16,227 nucleotides of DNA from an uncultured Collinsella sp. (GTDB lineage Bacteria > Actinomycetota > Coriobacteriia > Coriobacteriales > Coriobacteriaceae): positions 1-16,227 of the forward strand of contig CAUBGU010000031.1 in NCBI GenBank assembly GCA_958435545.1. Reading direction: 5' to 3'. How positions within the stretch are numbered: position 1 is the stretch's first letter; every line of letters starts with the position of its first letter. The notes beneath the pieces were generated by a model. It saw nothing but the letters and a program-made list of their open reading frames with translations, had not been told where the DNA came from and did not search any database. Shown one piece after another: positions 5,044 through 7,652 of the stretch. Position numbers and translations under genes: made by a program.

Positions 5044-6270
5044 CTAGGCCTGGGCGGCAGCAGAGCTGGGGCCCTGGACCTTTGCCCACGTCTTGAGCGA
5101 CAGCGTATCGATCTCGATAAAGCCGGCGCTGGCCTTCTCGTCAAACGTGGTGTCGCGGTCGTAGGTAGCCAGACCGTAGTCGTAGAGGCTGAAGGGGCTC
5201 TTGCGGCCGACGACATGGCAGTTGCCCTTAAAGAACTTCAGACGGACAGTGCCGGTCACGAACTTCTGGGTATCGGCCATAAAGGCATCGAGCGCGTTTT
5301 TGAGCGGGCTGTACCACTGGCCGTTGTACACGGCGGTGGCCCAATCCTGCTCGAGCTTGATCTTGGTCTTGAGCAGGTCGCCCTCGACGCAGATGTCCTC
5401 GAGCGCCTTGTGGGCGGTGATGAGCGTCAGGGCGCCGGGAACCTCGTAGCACTCGCGGCTCTTAAGACCCACCAGGCGATCCTCGACCAGATCGAGACGG
5501 CCAAAGCCATTGTCGCCGGAGATCTTGTTGAGGGCGATGACGATCTCGGAGAGCTTCATCTTCTTGCCGTCTACGGCGACGGGCTTGCCGGCCTCAAACT
5601 CAATCTCGGTGTAAGTCGGGGTGTCAGGCGTGTCCTCGGGGTTCTTGGTCATAACCCAAGCGTCATCGAGCGGCTCATTCCAGGGGTCCTCCAGGTGACC
5701 GCACTCGATGGCGCGACCCCACAGGTTGTCGTCGATGGAATAGGGGTTATCGTTGGCACCCTCGGGAACCGGCACGTTGTGGGCGTGGGCATAGGCGACC
5801 TCGTCGGGACGGCACTTCAGGTCCCACTCGCGAACCGGGGCGATAACCTTAAGCTCGGGGTCGAGGGCCTTGACGGCAGCCTCAAAACGGACCTGGTCGT
5901 TACCCTTGCCGGTGCAGCCGTGGGCGACGTAGGTCGCGCCAAACTCGTGAGCGACCTCGACAAGCTTCTTGGCGAGCAACGGACGGGAAAGAGCGGAGAG
6001 CAGCGGATACTTGTTCTCGTACATGGAGTTTGCGGCGATGGCCTTAGTCAGGAACTCATCGGAGAACTCGTCGCGCAGGTCGAGTACCTGGCAATCGAGA
6101 ACGCCCAGGTCGAGCGCCTTCTGCTTCTTGGCATCCAGTCCGGTCTCTTCCTGGCCCACGTTGCCGCAGACGCAAACGACATCGAGATTCTTCTCGTCCT
6201 GGAGCCACTTGACACATACGGATGTATCAAGACCACCGGAATATGCGAGAACGACTTTTTCCTTGCTCAT
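5044..6270 (-). CDS. argG: Argininosuccinate synthase
   Basis: The 408-residue cytoplasmic enzyme joins citrulline and aspartate using ATP to form argininosuccinate, the substrate of ArgH. The ATP pyrophosphatase loop AYSGGLDTSV is at residues 9-18. The second conserved region, AHGCTGKGNDQVRFE, is at 116-130, and SIDDNLWGRAIECGHLEDPW follows at 178-197. The chosen ATG (6268-6270) begins MSKEKVVLAYSGG and has GAAAGGA seven bases upstream; the 17 extra upstream codons lack family similarity. The leader holds an arginine-rich short ORF (6476-6550) and a terminator-like hairpin (6365-6413), so expression probably responds to arginine through attenuation. That regulation is inferred. Confidence 0.97.
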   Translation of the reverse strand: MSKEKVVLAYSGGLDTSVCVKWLQDEKNLDVVCVCGNVGQEETGLDAKKQKALDLGVLDCQVLDLRDEFSDEFLTKAIAANSMYENKYPLLSALSRPLLAKKLVEVAHEFGATYVAHGCTGKGNDQVRFEAAVKALDPELKVIAPVREWDLKCRPDEVAYAHAHNVPVPEGANDNPYSIDDNLWGRAIECGHLEDPWNEPLDDAWVMTKNPEDTPDTPTYTEIEFEAGKPVAVDGKKMKLSEIVIALNKISGDNGFGRLDLVEDRLVGLKSRECYEVPGALTLITAHKALEDICVEGDLLKTKIKLEQDWATAVYNGQWYSPLKNALDAFMADTQKFVTGTVRLKFFKGNCHVVGRKSPFSLYDYGLATYDRDTTFDEKASAGFIEIDTLSLKTWAKVQGPSSAAAQA

Positions 6271-6364
6271 GGCTGTTTCCTTTCGCCCTTGGTAGCTAGT
6301 TAGAACATCGGTCAGTTGCAAGTCATTTCAAGGTCATATACCGTGCAATATCAGGTTAAATAGC

Positions 6365-6413
6365 AAAAATCAGCACATACATGCCCTAGAAACATGCAGC
6401 AATGTCGTGCTAA
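6365..6413 (-). terminator. Terminator-like hairpin in the argG leader (candidate attenuator)
   Basis: On the - strand UUAGCACGACAU (6413-6402) pairs with the stretch 6382-6370. This makes 12 pairs including two G-U, with one bulged A at 6378. UUUUU follows directly (6369-6365). Because it lies between the arginine-rich ORF and argG, it would block argG transcription when formed. Its left arm can instead pair with GTCGT (6424-6420) just upstream, an alternative antiterminator helix. The stem is not very GC-rich, so termination efficiency is uncertain. Confidence 0.5.
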
Positions 6414-6475
6414 AACCCAACGACCTCAAAATGACTCTGTTGAGGCAATTCGCCCCATGCGGACAGAGACGATTG

Positions 6476-6550
6476 TTATCGTCGTCGGGAAATTGCGCGC
6501 TGGCGTCGGATGGCATTGTCTGCAGTGGTGATGATCTTTACGAACTGCAT
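6476..6550 (-). CDS. Arginine-rich leader peptide upstream of argG (24 residues)
   Basis: The ATG (6548-6550) has GGAG six bases upstream within a purine-rich GAGAGGAGAGG. The 24-codon frame ends at TAA (6476-6478). The first 14 residues are ordinary; the last ten are RRQRAISRRR, six arginines, finishing with three consecutive CGA codons before the stop. A cluster of codons for the pathway's end product in a short ORF ahead of a biosynthetic gene and a terminator hairpin is the pattern of ribosome-mediated attenuation, as in the trp, his and leu leaders. The proposed logic is that ribosomes stall at the arginine codons when charged tRNA-Arg is scarce, which favours the antiterminator. The peptide itself need have no function. 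The ORF is seen directly; the regulatory role is inferred. Confidence 0.6.
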   Translation of the reverse strand: MQFVKIITTADNAIRRQRAISRRR

Positions 6551-6653
6551 CTGCCTCTCCTCTCACGTATCGCCGGGCGCAATTCAAATATCGCAAACGG
6601 TACCTTTTCCTCGGTAAACGGCTCTTTTGCCGTCTCCGTTTTCGATGTTCGCT

Positions 6654-6659
6654 ATATTA
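6654..6659 (-). promoter_or_regulatory. Weak candidate -10 for the argG leader transcript
   Basis: On the - strand this reads TAATAT, with TTGTGC 16 bases upstream, and would start transcription near 6647, about 100 bases before the leader ORF. Two AATTCAAAT sequences (6581-6589 and 6688-6696) flank it and might be regulator half-sites. A hairpin ACGGC/GCCGT (6618-6633) also lies in this stretch. All of this is tentative. Confidence 0.25.
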
Positions 6660-6783
6660 CGATAAAGTGCACGCTGCACAAGCGACAAATTCAAATTTCT
6701 GAAAAGTTTTTTCATTAGTTTGTGAATTGCAGTGCAAATACGCACCATTCCTGCGAAAATACGCTCGACTACTAGTTGATGGT

Positions 6784-6789
6784 TATAAC
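6784..6789 (+). promoter_or_regulatory. Candidate -10 element of the HAD phosphatase gene
   Basis: TATAAC matches five of six consensus bases and would start transcription near 6796, about 30 bases before the ATG. No convincing -35 is seen at the standard distance. Confidence 0.4.
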
Positions 6790-6824
6790 GTCTGAAACGA
6801 TCTCGAAACGAAAGGCGCTTTTTT

Positions 6825-7652
6825 ATGCAAACTTACGAATCGGACGCCAACATCGGCAACATTAAGATTCTCGCCGTCGATATGGACAAGACGCTGCTGA
6901 CCGACGAGCGTGTGCTGCCCCAGGGTCTTGATGAGCGCCTGGACAAGCTCGCCGACGCCGGCATCGTATTCTGCCCCGCCAGCGGACGTCCCGCCCCCAA
7001 GCTCGAGGAGATGTTCGAGGGCATCAAGAACCGCCTCGCCTTTTGTCCCGACAACGGAGCGTGCGTGATCTATCGCGGCAGCTATATCTATAAGAGCAAT
7101 ATTGACGTGGAGCTGTATCAGCAGGTCTTGAACCGTGCCTCGGAGGATCCTCGCGCTGTCCCCGTCCTGTGCTGCTTCGACGAGTTCTACGTGCTTGCCC
7201 GCGACCATCAATACCACGACGAGATCAGCGTCTACTACAACACAATCAACTACGTCGACAGCTTTGAGGGCATTGATTTCGAGTCCAACAAGATTTCGGT
7301 CTTCTTCCCCGGCTACGACGCCGAGCCCGCTTTCCGCGAGACCTATAGCCCCGAGTTCTCGGACAAGCTCTACGTCACCAACGCCGGGCGCGAGTGGATC
7401 GACTTTATGAACCTGGGCGTCGACAAGGGCGCCGGCGTCGCGCACCTGTGCGAGCACCTGGGTATCGATATTGCCGATGCTGCCGCCGTGGGTGATACCT
7501 ACAACGACATCCCCATGCTGGAGCGCGTCGGTCACAGCTTTATCGTGGACAACGCCGAGGAGCATATGAACGCGCACGCCAAGTGGCGCATTCCGAGCAA
7601 CAACGACGGGGGCGTACTGACGCTCATCGACGCCATCCTGGCGGCTCGTTAA
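6825..7652 (+). CDS. HAD-superfamily hydrolase, subfamily IIB (Cof-like phosphatase)
   Basis: The 275-residue protein has all four HAD motifs in order. Motif I is AVDMDKTLL with nucleophile Asp19 and acid/base Asp21; motif II is ASGR with Ser53; motif III has Lys201 in GVDKGAGV; motif IV is GDTYNDIPML with Asp224 and Asp228. The long insert between motifs II and III is the C2B cap of Cof-type sugar-phosphate or phosphorylated-metabolite phosphatases. Motif I has Lys in place of the usual Gly after the second Asp (DMDK, not DMDG). The substrate cannot be told. The ATG follows AAAGG with 9-base spacing. The gene is monocistronic, with the 126-base inverted-repeat element just downstream. Confidence 0.9.
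   Translation: MQTYESDANIGNIKILAVDMDKTLLTDERVLPQGLDERLDKLADAGIVFCPASGRPAPKLEEMFEGIKNRLAFCPDNGACVIYRGSYIYKSNIDVELYQQVLNRASEDPRAVPVLCCFDEFYVLARDHQYHDEISVYYNTINYVDSFEGIDFESNKISVFFPGYDAEPAFRETYSPEFSDKLYVTNAGREWIDFMNLGVDKGAGVAHLCEHLGIDIADAAAVGDTYNDIPMLERVGHSFIVDNAEEHMNAHAKWRIPSNNDGGVLTLIDAILAAR

Follow-up and report, generated by a model that had tools for sequence, protein, structure and literature searches.

The window analysed here is a stretch of 16,227 nt from an uncultured Collinsella sp. (contig CAUBGU010000031.1). On its minus strand lies argG, coding for argininosuccinate synthase, and upstream of argG a short open reading frame (ORF) preceded by a ribosome-binding site (Table 1). A preliminary description of this DNA had pointed out an ORF with an arginine-rich end about 200 bases before argG on the same strand. 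The ORF proved to be real: six of the last ten residues of its peptide are Arg, the final three sense codons are CGA CGA CGA, and 205 nt separate its stop codon from the ATG of argG. We consider it likely that this ORF is part of a switch, located in the 5' untranslated RNA of argG, that senses arginine through a leader peptide; arginine shortage would turn argG up and arginine plenty would turn it down.

By itself, the number of Arg codons is only mildly unusual, as 1 of 100 dinucleotide shuffles equalled the window leader. Six Arg within 14 codons were found upstream of argG on the sense strand in 58 of 111 loci and on the antisense strand in 15 of 111. The count alone was rejected as proof since GC-rich antisense strands often attain the same value. 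It is the conservation of the leader, and not its Arg count, that places it above chance.

To follow the leader through the genus, whole genomes were searched with a degenerate pattern for its 33-base core, RR[Q/R]RAISRRR-stop. Exactly one copy was found in 31 of 35 genomes of the window's genus, and a comparison with the argG coordinates placed all 31 sites on the upstream side of argG, adjoining it on the same strand; where measured, the distance from the core stop to argG was 175–410 nt. Of the four genomes lacking the core, G025 has argG, whereas G020, G023, and G027 gave no argG match (completeness 99, 87, and 72%). The core was thus present in 31 of 32 genomes with argG and in none of the three without, two of these three being only 87 and 72% complete. 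A reversed control pattern gave no match, and the core pattern itself gave none in 23 genomes of other families.

Within the core, window-type contexts (6 of 18) and 25 other contexts were 84–98% identical in steps of 12 bases. These values are inflated because the pattern requires the Arg codons and was composed after the sequences had been seen; the whole-genome count and the flanks are fairer tests of conservation. Identity fell to 4–36%, which is chance level, from 4 nt past the stop codon onwards and also more than about 56 nt ahead of it. A longer form of the leader was present at 27 loci, where a conserved ATYEG-like block is always followed by the stop codon after 33 codons without any insertion or deletion. 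This second conserved block is absent from the shortened leader of the window. The alignment of related upstream regions proposed in the preliminary description came out in favour of the ORF: conservation extends to the reading frame, the Arg codons, and the place of the ORF, while the flanks drift. Judged by sequence comparison, the ORF is a conserved leader gene, and its conservation suggests that it is translated. All statistical values given here ignore kinship.

The choice of codons in the leader is as peculiar as the choice of residues. CGA accounts for 5 of 210 Arg codons in the 11 main genes of the window and for four of the six in the leader. The second Arg cluster (cluster 2) reads CGA CGA CGA in all 43 distinct contexts, although the third bases were free in the search pattern. 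Likewise, cluster 1 shows no variation in the third bases of CGA CGC over 43 of 43 contexts, though its Arg residues as such were required by the pattern. The earlier remark that CGA is a poorly used codon was therefore well placed, the more so as CGA also recurs at two positions in 24 of 24 argR ends described below. Ala-Ile-Ser between the clusters is kept in 41 of 43 contexts (exceptions L026 and L057), with the search pattern limiting these positions to Ala/Thr, Ile, and Ser/Thr/Ala; the Ala codon uses all four third bases. For eight distinct ORFs of the C. aerofaciens type the ratio of nonsynonymous to synonymous polymorphism (pN/pS) was 0.20 over all codons. In the longer leader form it was 0.38 for the last 11 codons, 0.74 for the N-terminal part, and 0.79 for a frame +1 control. 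Since the N-terminal value lies hardly below the control, peptide constraint is clear at the C-terminal end only.

An ArgG match is present in 269 of 297 genomes of the order. From the order we took 80 regions upstream of argG, chosen among the matches listed: 55 from the Eggerthellaceae, 11 from the Coriobacteriaceae (the window's family), nine from a family f5, which we guess to be the Atopobiaceae, and five from others. To these came regions from 28 of 30 further genomes that could be anchored at argG, plus one more region. ArgG was 100% identical in 19 of 44 loci compared, mostly from C. aerofaciens, and the window is assigned to the C. aerofaciens group. One f5 genome, G200, has several argG-like matches on contigs C1 and C2, one of them with an internal stop.

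Arg-rich ORF ends recur upstream of argG across the order, with differing sequences. In f5 a RR[QHR]xRR leader was recognised at 22 of 33 loci, though two of the 22, L251 and L252, resemble chance matches. Among 56 Eggerthellaceae loci, 24 (16 genera) have an upstream argR gene ending in LRRR-stop, and 13 (seven genera) have an ORF that stands alone, for instance RRRRISRLRRRSA or VVSRLRRR. The Eggerthellaceae genus g42 carries a RRQxRR leader at seven of eight loci. The g42 leaders (L126, L140, L164, L165, L167, L168, L264) and their strong terminators are very like those of f5, as shared ancestry or transfer would produce.

This diversity bears on the idea of an arrest peptide, in which the growing chain would stop its own ribosome in response to arginine or some other ligand, so that the codons matter only through the residues AIS and RRR. 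The retention of Ala-Ile-Ser despite changing third positions speaks for it, within the few residues that the pattern allowed there. On the other hand, the leaders elsewhere (RRQDRRTTSR, RRRRISRLRRRSA, LLRRVSRRRLF, and the argR end) have mainly Arg in common, and in cluster 2 every third position is fixed in the form CGA, which is what a role as RNA strand or as rare codons would demand. We regard an arrest peptide as improbable.

The RNA around and behind the leader was compared in 28 of 29 Coriobacteriaceae representatives chosen (L016 lacks the motif). A small predicted hairpin A consists of cluster 2 together with the stop codon and the bases behind it. Its 5–9 bp complement is present in 28 of 28 representatives (counted without a shuffle control), in a register that shifts between clades. 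Together with the frozen CGACGACGA, this would also be expected if merely a DNA or RNA palindrome CGACGAC..GTCGTC were conserved and the Arg frame were its by-product. We find this hardly credible, because the same frame, the immediate stop, and a second, upstream Arg cluster recur in unlike peptides, the ORF length is constant and free of indels over the 27 loci, and RRQxRR leaders retain their Arg clusters though the ends past the clusters differ.

The last leader codons contain a strand, segment 2 (seg2), that can pair with a segment 3 (seg3) further downstream. In the window this helix has 9 bp, a value reached by 1 of 300 shuffles. Pairing of seg2 was scored within +34 to +112 nt from the stop codon. 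For 25 of the 28 representatives the best partner, seg3, fell at +48 to +59, far from the Shine-Dalgarno sequence of argG, and in 16 of 28 the pairing beat 97% of the shuffles. The arms covary, being CCCGACGAC:GTCGTTGGG in the window, CTCCCGACG:CGTCGGGAG in L025, TCTCTCGA:TCGAGAGA in L028, and CTCGACGA:TCGTCGAG in L021, L098, L027, and L026.

A second partner competes for the same bases. In 20 of 28 representatives the long-range helix PLR joins bases 3' of a hairpin B to a strand that lies 24–35 nt upstream of the ribosome-binding site of argG. The window PLR comprises 18 bp; neither 25 swaps with other clades nor 200 shuffles gave a helix as good. PLR beats all other-clade swaps in 10 of 28 representatives, and its positions 6–9 show three or four Watson–Crick pair types, with 1 to 6 mismatches among the 28, the arms having been picked as the best for each sequence. 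Duplex energies of long stretches were rejected as a test of PLR, as they were too noisy (mean native -42.6 vs. swapped -38.4), and contiguous helices with swap controls were used instead. In the window, PLR and the seg2:seg3 helix share five bases and are mutually exclusive.

Table 1. Features of the argG leader region in the window, with positions on the whole stretch
Feature	Position	Strand	Details
Candidate promoter of the leader–argG transcript	6650..6681	-	TTGTGC .. TAATATAG; by-eye comparison
Leader ribosome-binding site	about 6564-6554	-	GAGAGGAGAGG; from sequence; near kin have AAAGGAGAGG
Leader peptide ORF	6550..6476	-	24 aa, MQFVKIITTADNAIRRQRAISRRR, stop TAA; from sequence and conservation
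Arg cluster 1	6497..6508	-	CGA CGC CAG CGC = R15 R16 Q17 R18; proposed stall site
seg2	6481..6489	-	CCCGACGAC, within last leader codons; pairs with seg3
Arg cluster 2	6479..6487	-	CGA CGA CGA = R22-R24; proposed switch strand
Hairpin A	6468..6483	-	GACGAT-AACA-ATCGTC; stop codon covers end of 5' arm and loop
Hairpin B	6435..6468	-	CTCTGT..ACAGAG with inner GGGGC/GCCTC, then ATTTTG
PLR 5' strand	6420..6437	-	GAGTCATTTTGAGGTCGT
seg3	6416..6424	-	GTCGTTGGG, then TTTT; pairs with seg2
Terminator-like hairpin T	6365..6411	-	AGCAC..GTGCT-GATTTTT; best-placed terminator candidate of the window, hairpin B being the other
Helix P2, 3' strand	6351..6357	-	AACCTGA; partner TTGGGTT at 6420-6414 overlaps seg3; transferred by eye from tanakaei-clade alignment, without controls
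PLR 3' strand	6320..6337	-	ATGACCTTGAAATGACTT, about 35 nt before argG ribosome-binding site
argG, argininosuccinate synthase	5044..6270	-	ATG at 6270; downstream of leader

From these features we propose the following course of events. A ribosome would translate the short peptide with its two Arg clusters, and cluster 1 (RRQR) would be the point at which it waits when charged Arg-tRNA is short. Cluster 2, beside the stop codon, would double as the RNA strand seg2, able to pair with seg3. With the ribosome paused at cluster 1, seg2 would be free and hold seg3; with the ribosome at the stop codon, seg2 would be covered and seg3 could be taken by another partner. In the RRRRAISRRR clade of the window's genus that partner would be the 3' arm of a terminator of the intrinsic type, a design matched in f5; in the window's clade it would be a distal strand before argG (PLR or P2). 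Comparison of sequences establishes the leader, its position, and the competing predicted helices, as well as terminators for part of the order. That a stalled ribosome acts as the sensor is suggested by the codons, their rarity, and the precedents, and that shortage would turn argG on is suggested by folding and the logic of the pathway. The state of PLR may affect argG in Collinsella, and in the window's clade the switch could act on termination, on translation, or on the stability of the mRNA.

Terminators were counted after the leader as a hairpin plus a U-tract (strict criterion), with shuffled sequences as controls. In f5, 14 of 22 leader loci have a strict terminator vs. 22 of 880 shuffles. 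Among the Coriobacteriaceae it was found in 13 of 28 representatives vs. 37 of 1120 shuffles, ten of the 13 consisting of hairpin A and a pyrimidine-rich tail. The same holds for 16 of the 18 strict terminators at the 37 LRRR-type Eggerthellaceae loci (59 of 1480 shuffles), and in g42 all seven RRQxRR leaders are followed by a strict terminator (counted without a shuffle control). In the RRRRAISRRR clade of the window's genus (L098, L026, and L021) the 5' arm of the terminator is the switch strand.

In f5 a putative antiterminator could be recognised as well. The set comprised the 14 loci with strict terminators, a duplicate being dropped, and three others whose hairpins are weaker. Pairing between the bases that follow cluster 1 and the 5' half of the terminator was on average better than in swaps with other sequence classes (mean 18.4 vs. 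14.7, p = 0.009, 16 loci). The antiterminator covaries, and nine of the 16 loci are convincing. Attenuation by an intrinsic terminator is, on comparative grounds, well supported in f5 and g42.

In the window itself the situation is less clear. A simple scan between leader and argG listed no terminator on this strand. The terminator-like hairpin claimed for this place in the preliminary description does exist as hairpin B (-14.7 kcal/mol with two extra bases per side, followed by ATTTTG with four U), but it is not among the results of that scan, and a looser scan of 69 loci was only weakly enriched (42 of 69 vs. 334 of 828 shuffles). A general intrinsic terminator for all loci was rejected on the latter figures. 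The further claim of ribosome-mediated attenuation is partly borne out, in f5, g42, and the RRRRAISRRR clade by their terminators and, in f5, by the antiterminator; the window's clade has kept the switch strands, but no conserved terminator was found there.

The leaders were also folded with a ribosome footprint on chosen codons, by a method in which pseudoknots are not possible and seg2:seg3 is barred by construction when the ribosome is at the stop codon. In five of five loci a ribosome at the first Arg codons gave the terminator a lower probability than one at the stop codon did (window 0.18 vs. 0.96, L098 0.84 vs. 0.95, L026 0.01 vs. 0.98, L160 0.74 vs. 0.96, and L246 0.00 vs. 0.30). Without a ribosome the values were 0.94, 0.94, 0.08, 0.90, and 0.00, respectively. 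Of the 13 window-type contexts (among 18) amenable to folding, nine shifted the terminator in the same way by more than 0.2. Among 25 of the 28 representatives, PLR exceeded 0.5 in 17 when the stop codon was occupied and in eight when the ribosome stood at R15. The predictions are consistent with the proposed direction and do not amount to proof. In the window, T opens through a long-range pairing when the ribosome is at R15; this pairing was not relied on, as the shift is missing in some kin.

A related explanation is that the leader acts after transcription. The change between PLR and seg2:seg3 would then alter the translation of argG (by re-initiation across the helix that joins the leader stop to the argG start) or the decay of its mRNA, with no termination in Collinsella. 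This overlaps with the switch proposed above, of which it would be one version. In the window's clade no other helix is as well supported as PLR, whose 3' strand lies close before the argG ribosome-binding site, and a conserved terminator was not found in this clade; moreover, Salmonella speF is controlled in such a way through two Arg codons in orf34, according to PMC6386406. Yet PLR does not cover the ribosome-binding site of argG, and terminators follow the leader in f5, g42, and two clades of the window's genus. We rate a purely post-transcriptional action as possible, if rather unlikely.

Several results weigh against a leader-peptide switch as drawn here. In the window's clade no conserved intrinsic terminator is apparent, and T lacks its arms in five of 18 near-kin contexts. 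The seg2:seg3 helix falls short of the 3% shuffle level in 12 of 28 representatives, PLR is matched by at least one other-clade swap in 18 of 28, and seven of the 16 antiterminators in f5 fail to beat the swaps. As for the folding, the predicted terminator shift is absent in four of the 13 window-type contexts, and in the window it needs an unlikely long-range pairing of the 5' part of the leader with the U-tract of T. The seg2:seg3 helix exceeds 0.5 in 12 of 25 representatives without a ribosome and in 14 of 25 with the ribosome at R15, often giving the same state; the representative L017 shows the opposite direction for PLR, and the window PLR without a ribosome varies with the stretch folded (0.86 vs. 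0.10). Finally, no leader was recognised in 12 of 56 Eggerthellaceae loci (including L139), in 11 of 33 f5 loci, in genome G025, in seven loci of g22 and g24 within the window's family (L244 has an ORF ending in ALPRRR), and in seven loci of the families f3, f4, f6, f7, and f10.

The control of arginine synthesis in bacteria is as a rule ascribed to ArgR, a protein repressor that acts at the promoter. Pathway and signal are the same for the argG leader, but here codons would be read, and part of the Eggerthellaceae carry these codons in the end of argR itself. Of 26 recognised argR copies linked to argG in this family, 24 end in LRRR-stop (exceptions L135 and L149). These 24 ends, from loci among L105–L171, read CGA CGA CGN-stop with CGA for the first two Arg codons in 24 of 24, whereas elsewhere in the same gene bodies CGA makes up 22 of 316 Arg codons. 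In 19 of the 24 copies a local complement follows the argR stop codon. The LRRR end was found in none of 19 and none of a further five argR copies that lie away from argG or in genomes lacking argG, and in none of the argG-linked copies of other families (L143, L150, L163, L086, L089, and L091). In L221, where argR adjoins argG in genome G039, the protein ends in KLRNFR.

The stand-alone leaders of the LRRR type were found in genomes without an ArgR match (13 of 13). In L110 such a leader lies between argD (identified from sequence) and argG, in the slot that argR occupies in L105. A tblastn search of 27 regions gave no credible remains of an argR body beside the stand-alone leaders; therefore the idea of a relic rests on the position and the LRRR-stop end only. 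Nor is the stand-alone leader generally tied to the loss of ArgR, because ArgR has also been lost in leaderless genomes (four of six clear cases: absent in G243, G190, G254, and G256, present in G280 and G208). Two genomes with an ambiguous leader, G284 and G140, gave no ArgR match. We tentatively suggest, with the odds somewhat against it, that the 3' end of argR in the Eggerthellaceae may serve as the arginine leader of argG, its last codons and the bases after the stop forming the switch hairpin. One gene would then provide a protein sensor and a ribosome sensor, and in several genera the repressor would have been lost and the LRRR-stop leader left, a repressor gene reduced to an attenuator.

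It could be argued that argG is under ArgR at its promoter only, the leader being idle or serving translation in general. ArgR is indeed present in 54 of 58 relatives, with the argR of Collinsella lying apart from argG, and the three g42 genomes with a RRQxRR leader that were tested (G199, G178, and G216) have an unlinked ArgR alongside it. Against this stand the 13 Eggerthellaceae genomes that have a stand-alone LRRR-type leader and gave no ArgR match, and the absence of the core from the three genus members without argG. Control by ArgR alone appears very improbable to us.

Classical leader-peptide attenuators are known from the trp, his, leu, ilv, thr, and phe operons. The argG leader resembles them in its short ORF, the repeated codons of the regulated amino acid, and the alternative hairpins, with a terminator and an antiterminator in f5. 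It departs from them in the amino acid, in the use of the last codons beside the stop as the switch strand, and, in the window's clade, in a long-range helix where a conserved terminator would otherwise stand. No known RNA family was recognised in the region: no Rfam model matched the window at its gathering score, and none of three weak matches in 6200–6830 was a T-box. One of them, mir-310 at 6323–6395 (E 3e-5, 31 bits vs. a gathering score of 48), was taken as chance.

A survey of the Actinobacteria reported no conserved RNA element upstream of arginine operons (Seliverstov 2005, PMC1262725); the terms Coriobacter and Atopobium are absent from it. The same survey describes a LEU element upstream of leuA, in which a run of Leu codons pairs with the Shine-Dalgarno sequence of leuA in a pseudoknot or an alternative structure. 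As in the argG leader, a codon run in a candidate leader pairs downstream, and LEU was suggested to derive from what is left of another gene (PMC1262725). LEU concerns leucine and leuA; in the argG leader the best predicted pairing within the range scored is with a strand far from the Shine-Dalgarno sequence. Two other small ORFs are known to sense arginine. Consecutive Arg codons in orf34 of Salmonella speF couple the fold of the mRNA to the arginine supply through Rho and RNase G; the target here is ornithine decarboxylase and not arginine synthesis (PMC6386406). The upstream ORF rbfL of S. aureus senses arginine limitation with rare Arg codons, but its target, rbf, is not an arginine gene and expression is lowered, not raised (PMC13009471). 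Among the open-licence PMC matches listed, none described by its title or the start of its abstract a leader peptide for arginine biosynthesis, a search that could miss subscription papers. If the proposed switch is real, arginine synthesis would join the pathways sensed by stalled ribosomes, with the leader present in three families of one actinobacterial order. In front of one and the same gene, a natural series would be open to comparison, from a repressor through a leader within the repressor gene to a leader on its own, and the common human gut species Collinsella aerofaciens would offer a testable target in its argG.

Some further observations concern other ends and other genes. Upstream of argC, 28 of 30 loci were anchored and showed no conserved leader; by a loose criterion Arg-rich ORF ends occur there in 12 loci, of which four share ..GGPRIARRR and the others are mutually unlike. 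In L139 (genome G284) an Arg-rich ORF ending in ..GRRAERRSARRI-stop lies 351 nt before argG, outside the leader patterns, and none of 100 shuffles reaches its Arg count. In L106 (genome G140) a citrate synthase-like ORF 274 nt before argG ends in ..ELERRR-stop with CGACGACGATAG, which may be a coincidence or a further co-opted gene end. L102, a g24 locus in which no leader was found, has AT-rich palindromes of the ATATGCAT type in the last 200 bases before argG, possibly ArgR boxes; similar ATGCAT motifs occur in L187 upstream of argC.

The candidate promoter of the leader–argG transcript was located by eye. A promoter-like block (GCACTTTA..TATA) was seen 5' of the leader in the five representatives compared in this way. 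A simple -10 pattern matched this block in five of 16 representatives, the window not among them, and a strict sigma-70 scan did not list the candidate. Between its putative -35 and -10 elements, at 6667–6679 of the window, lies the palindrome GTGCAGCGTGCAC, a possible operator.
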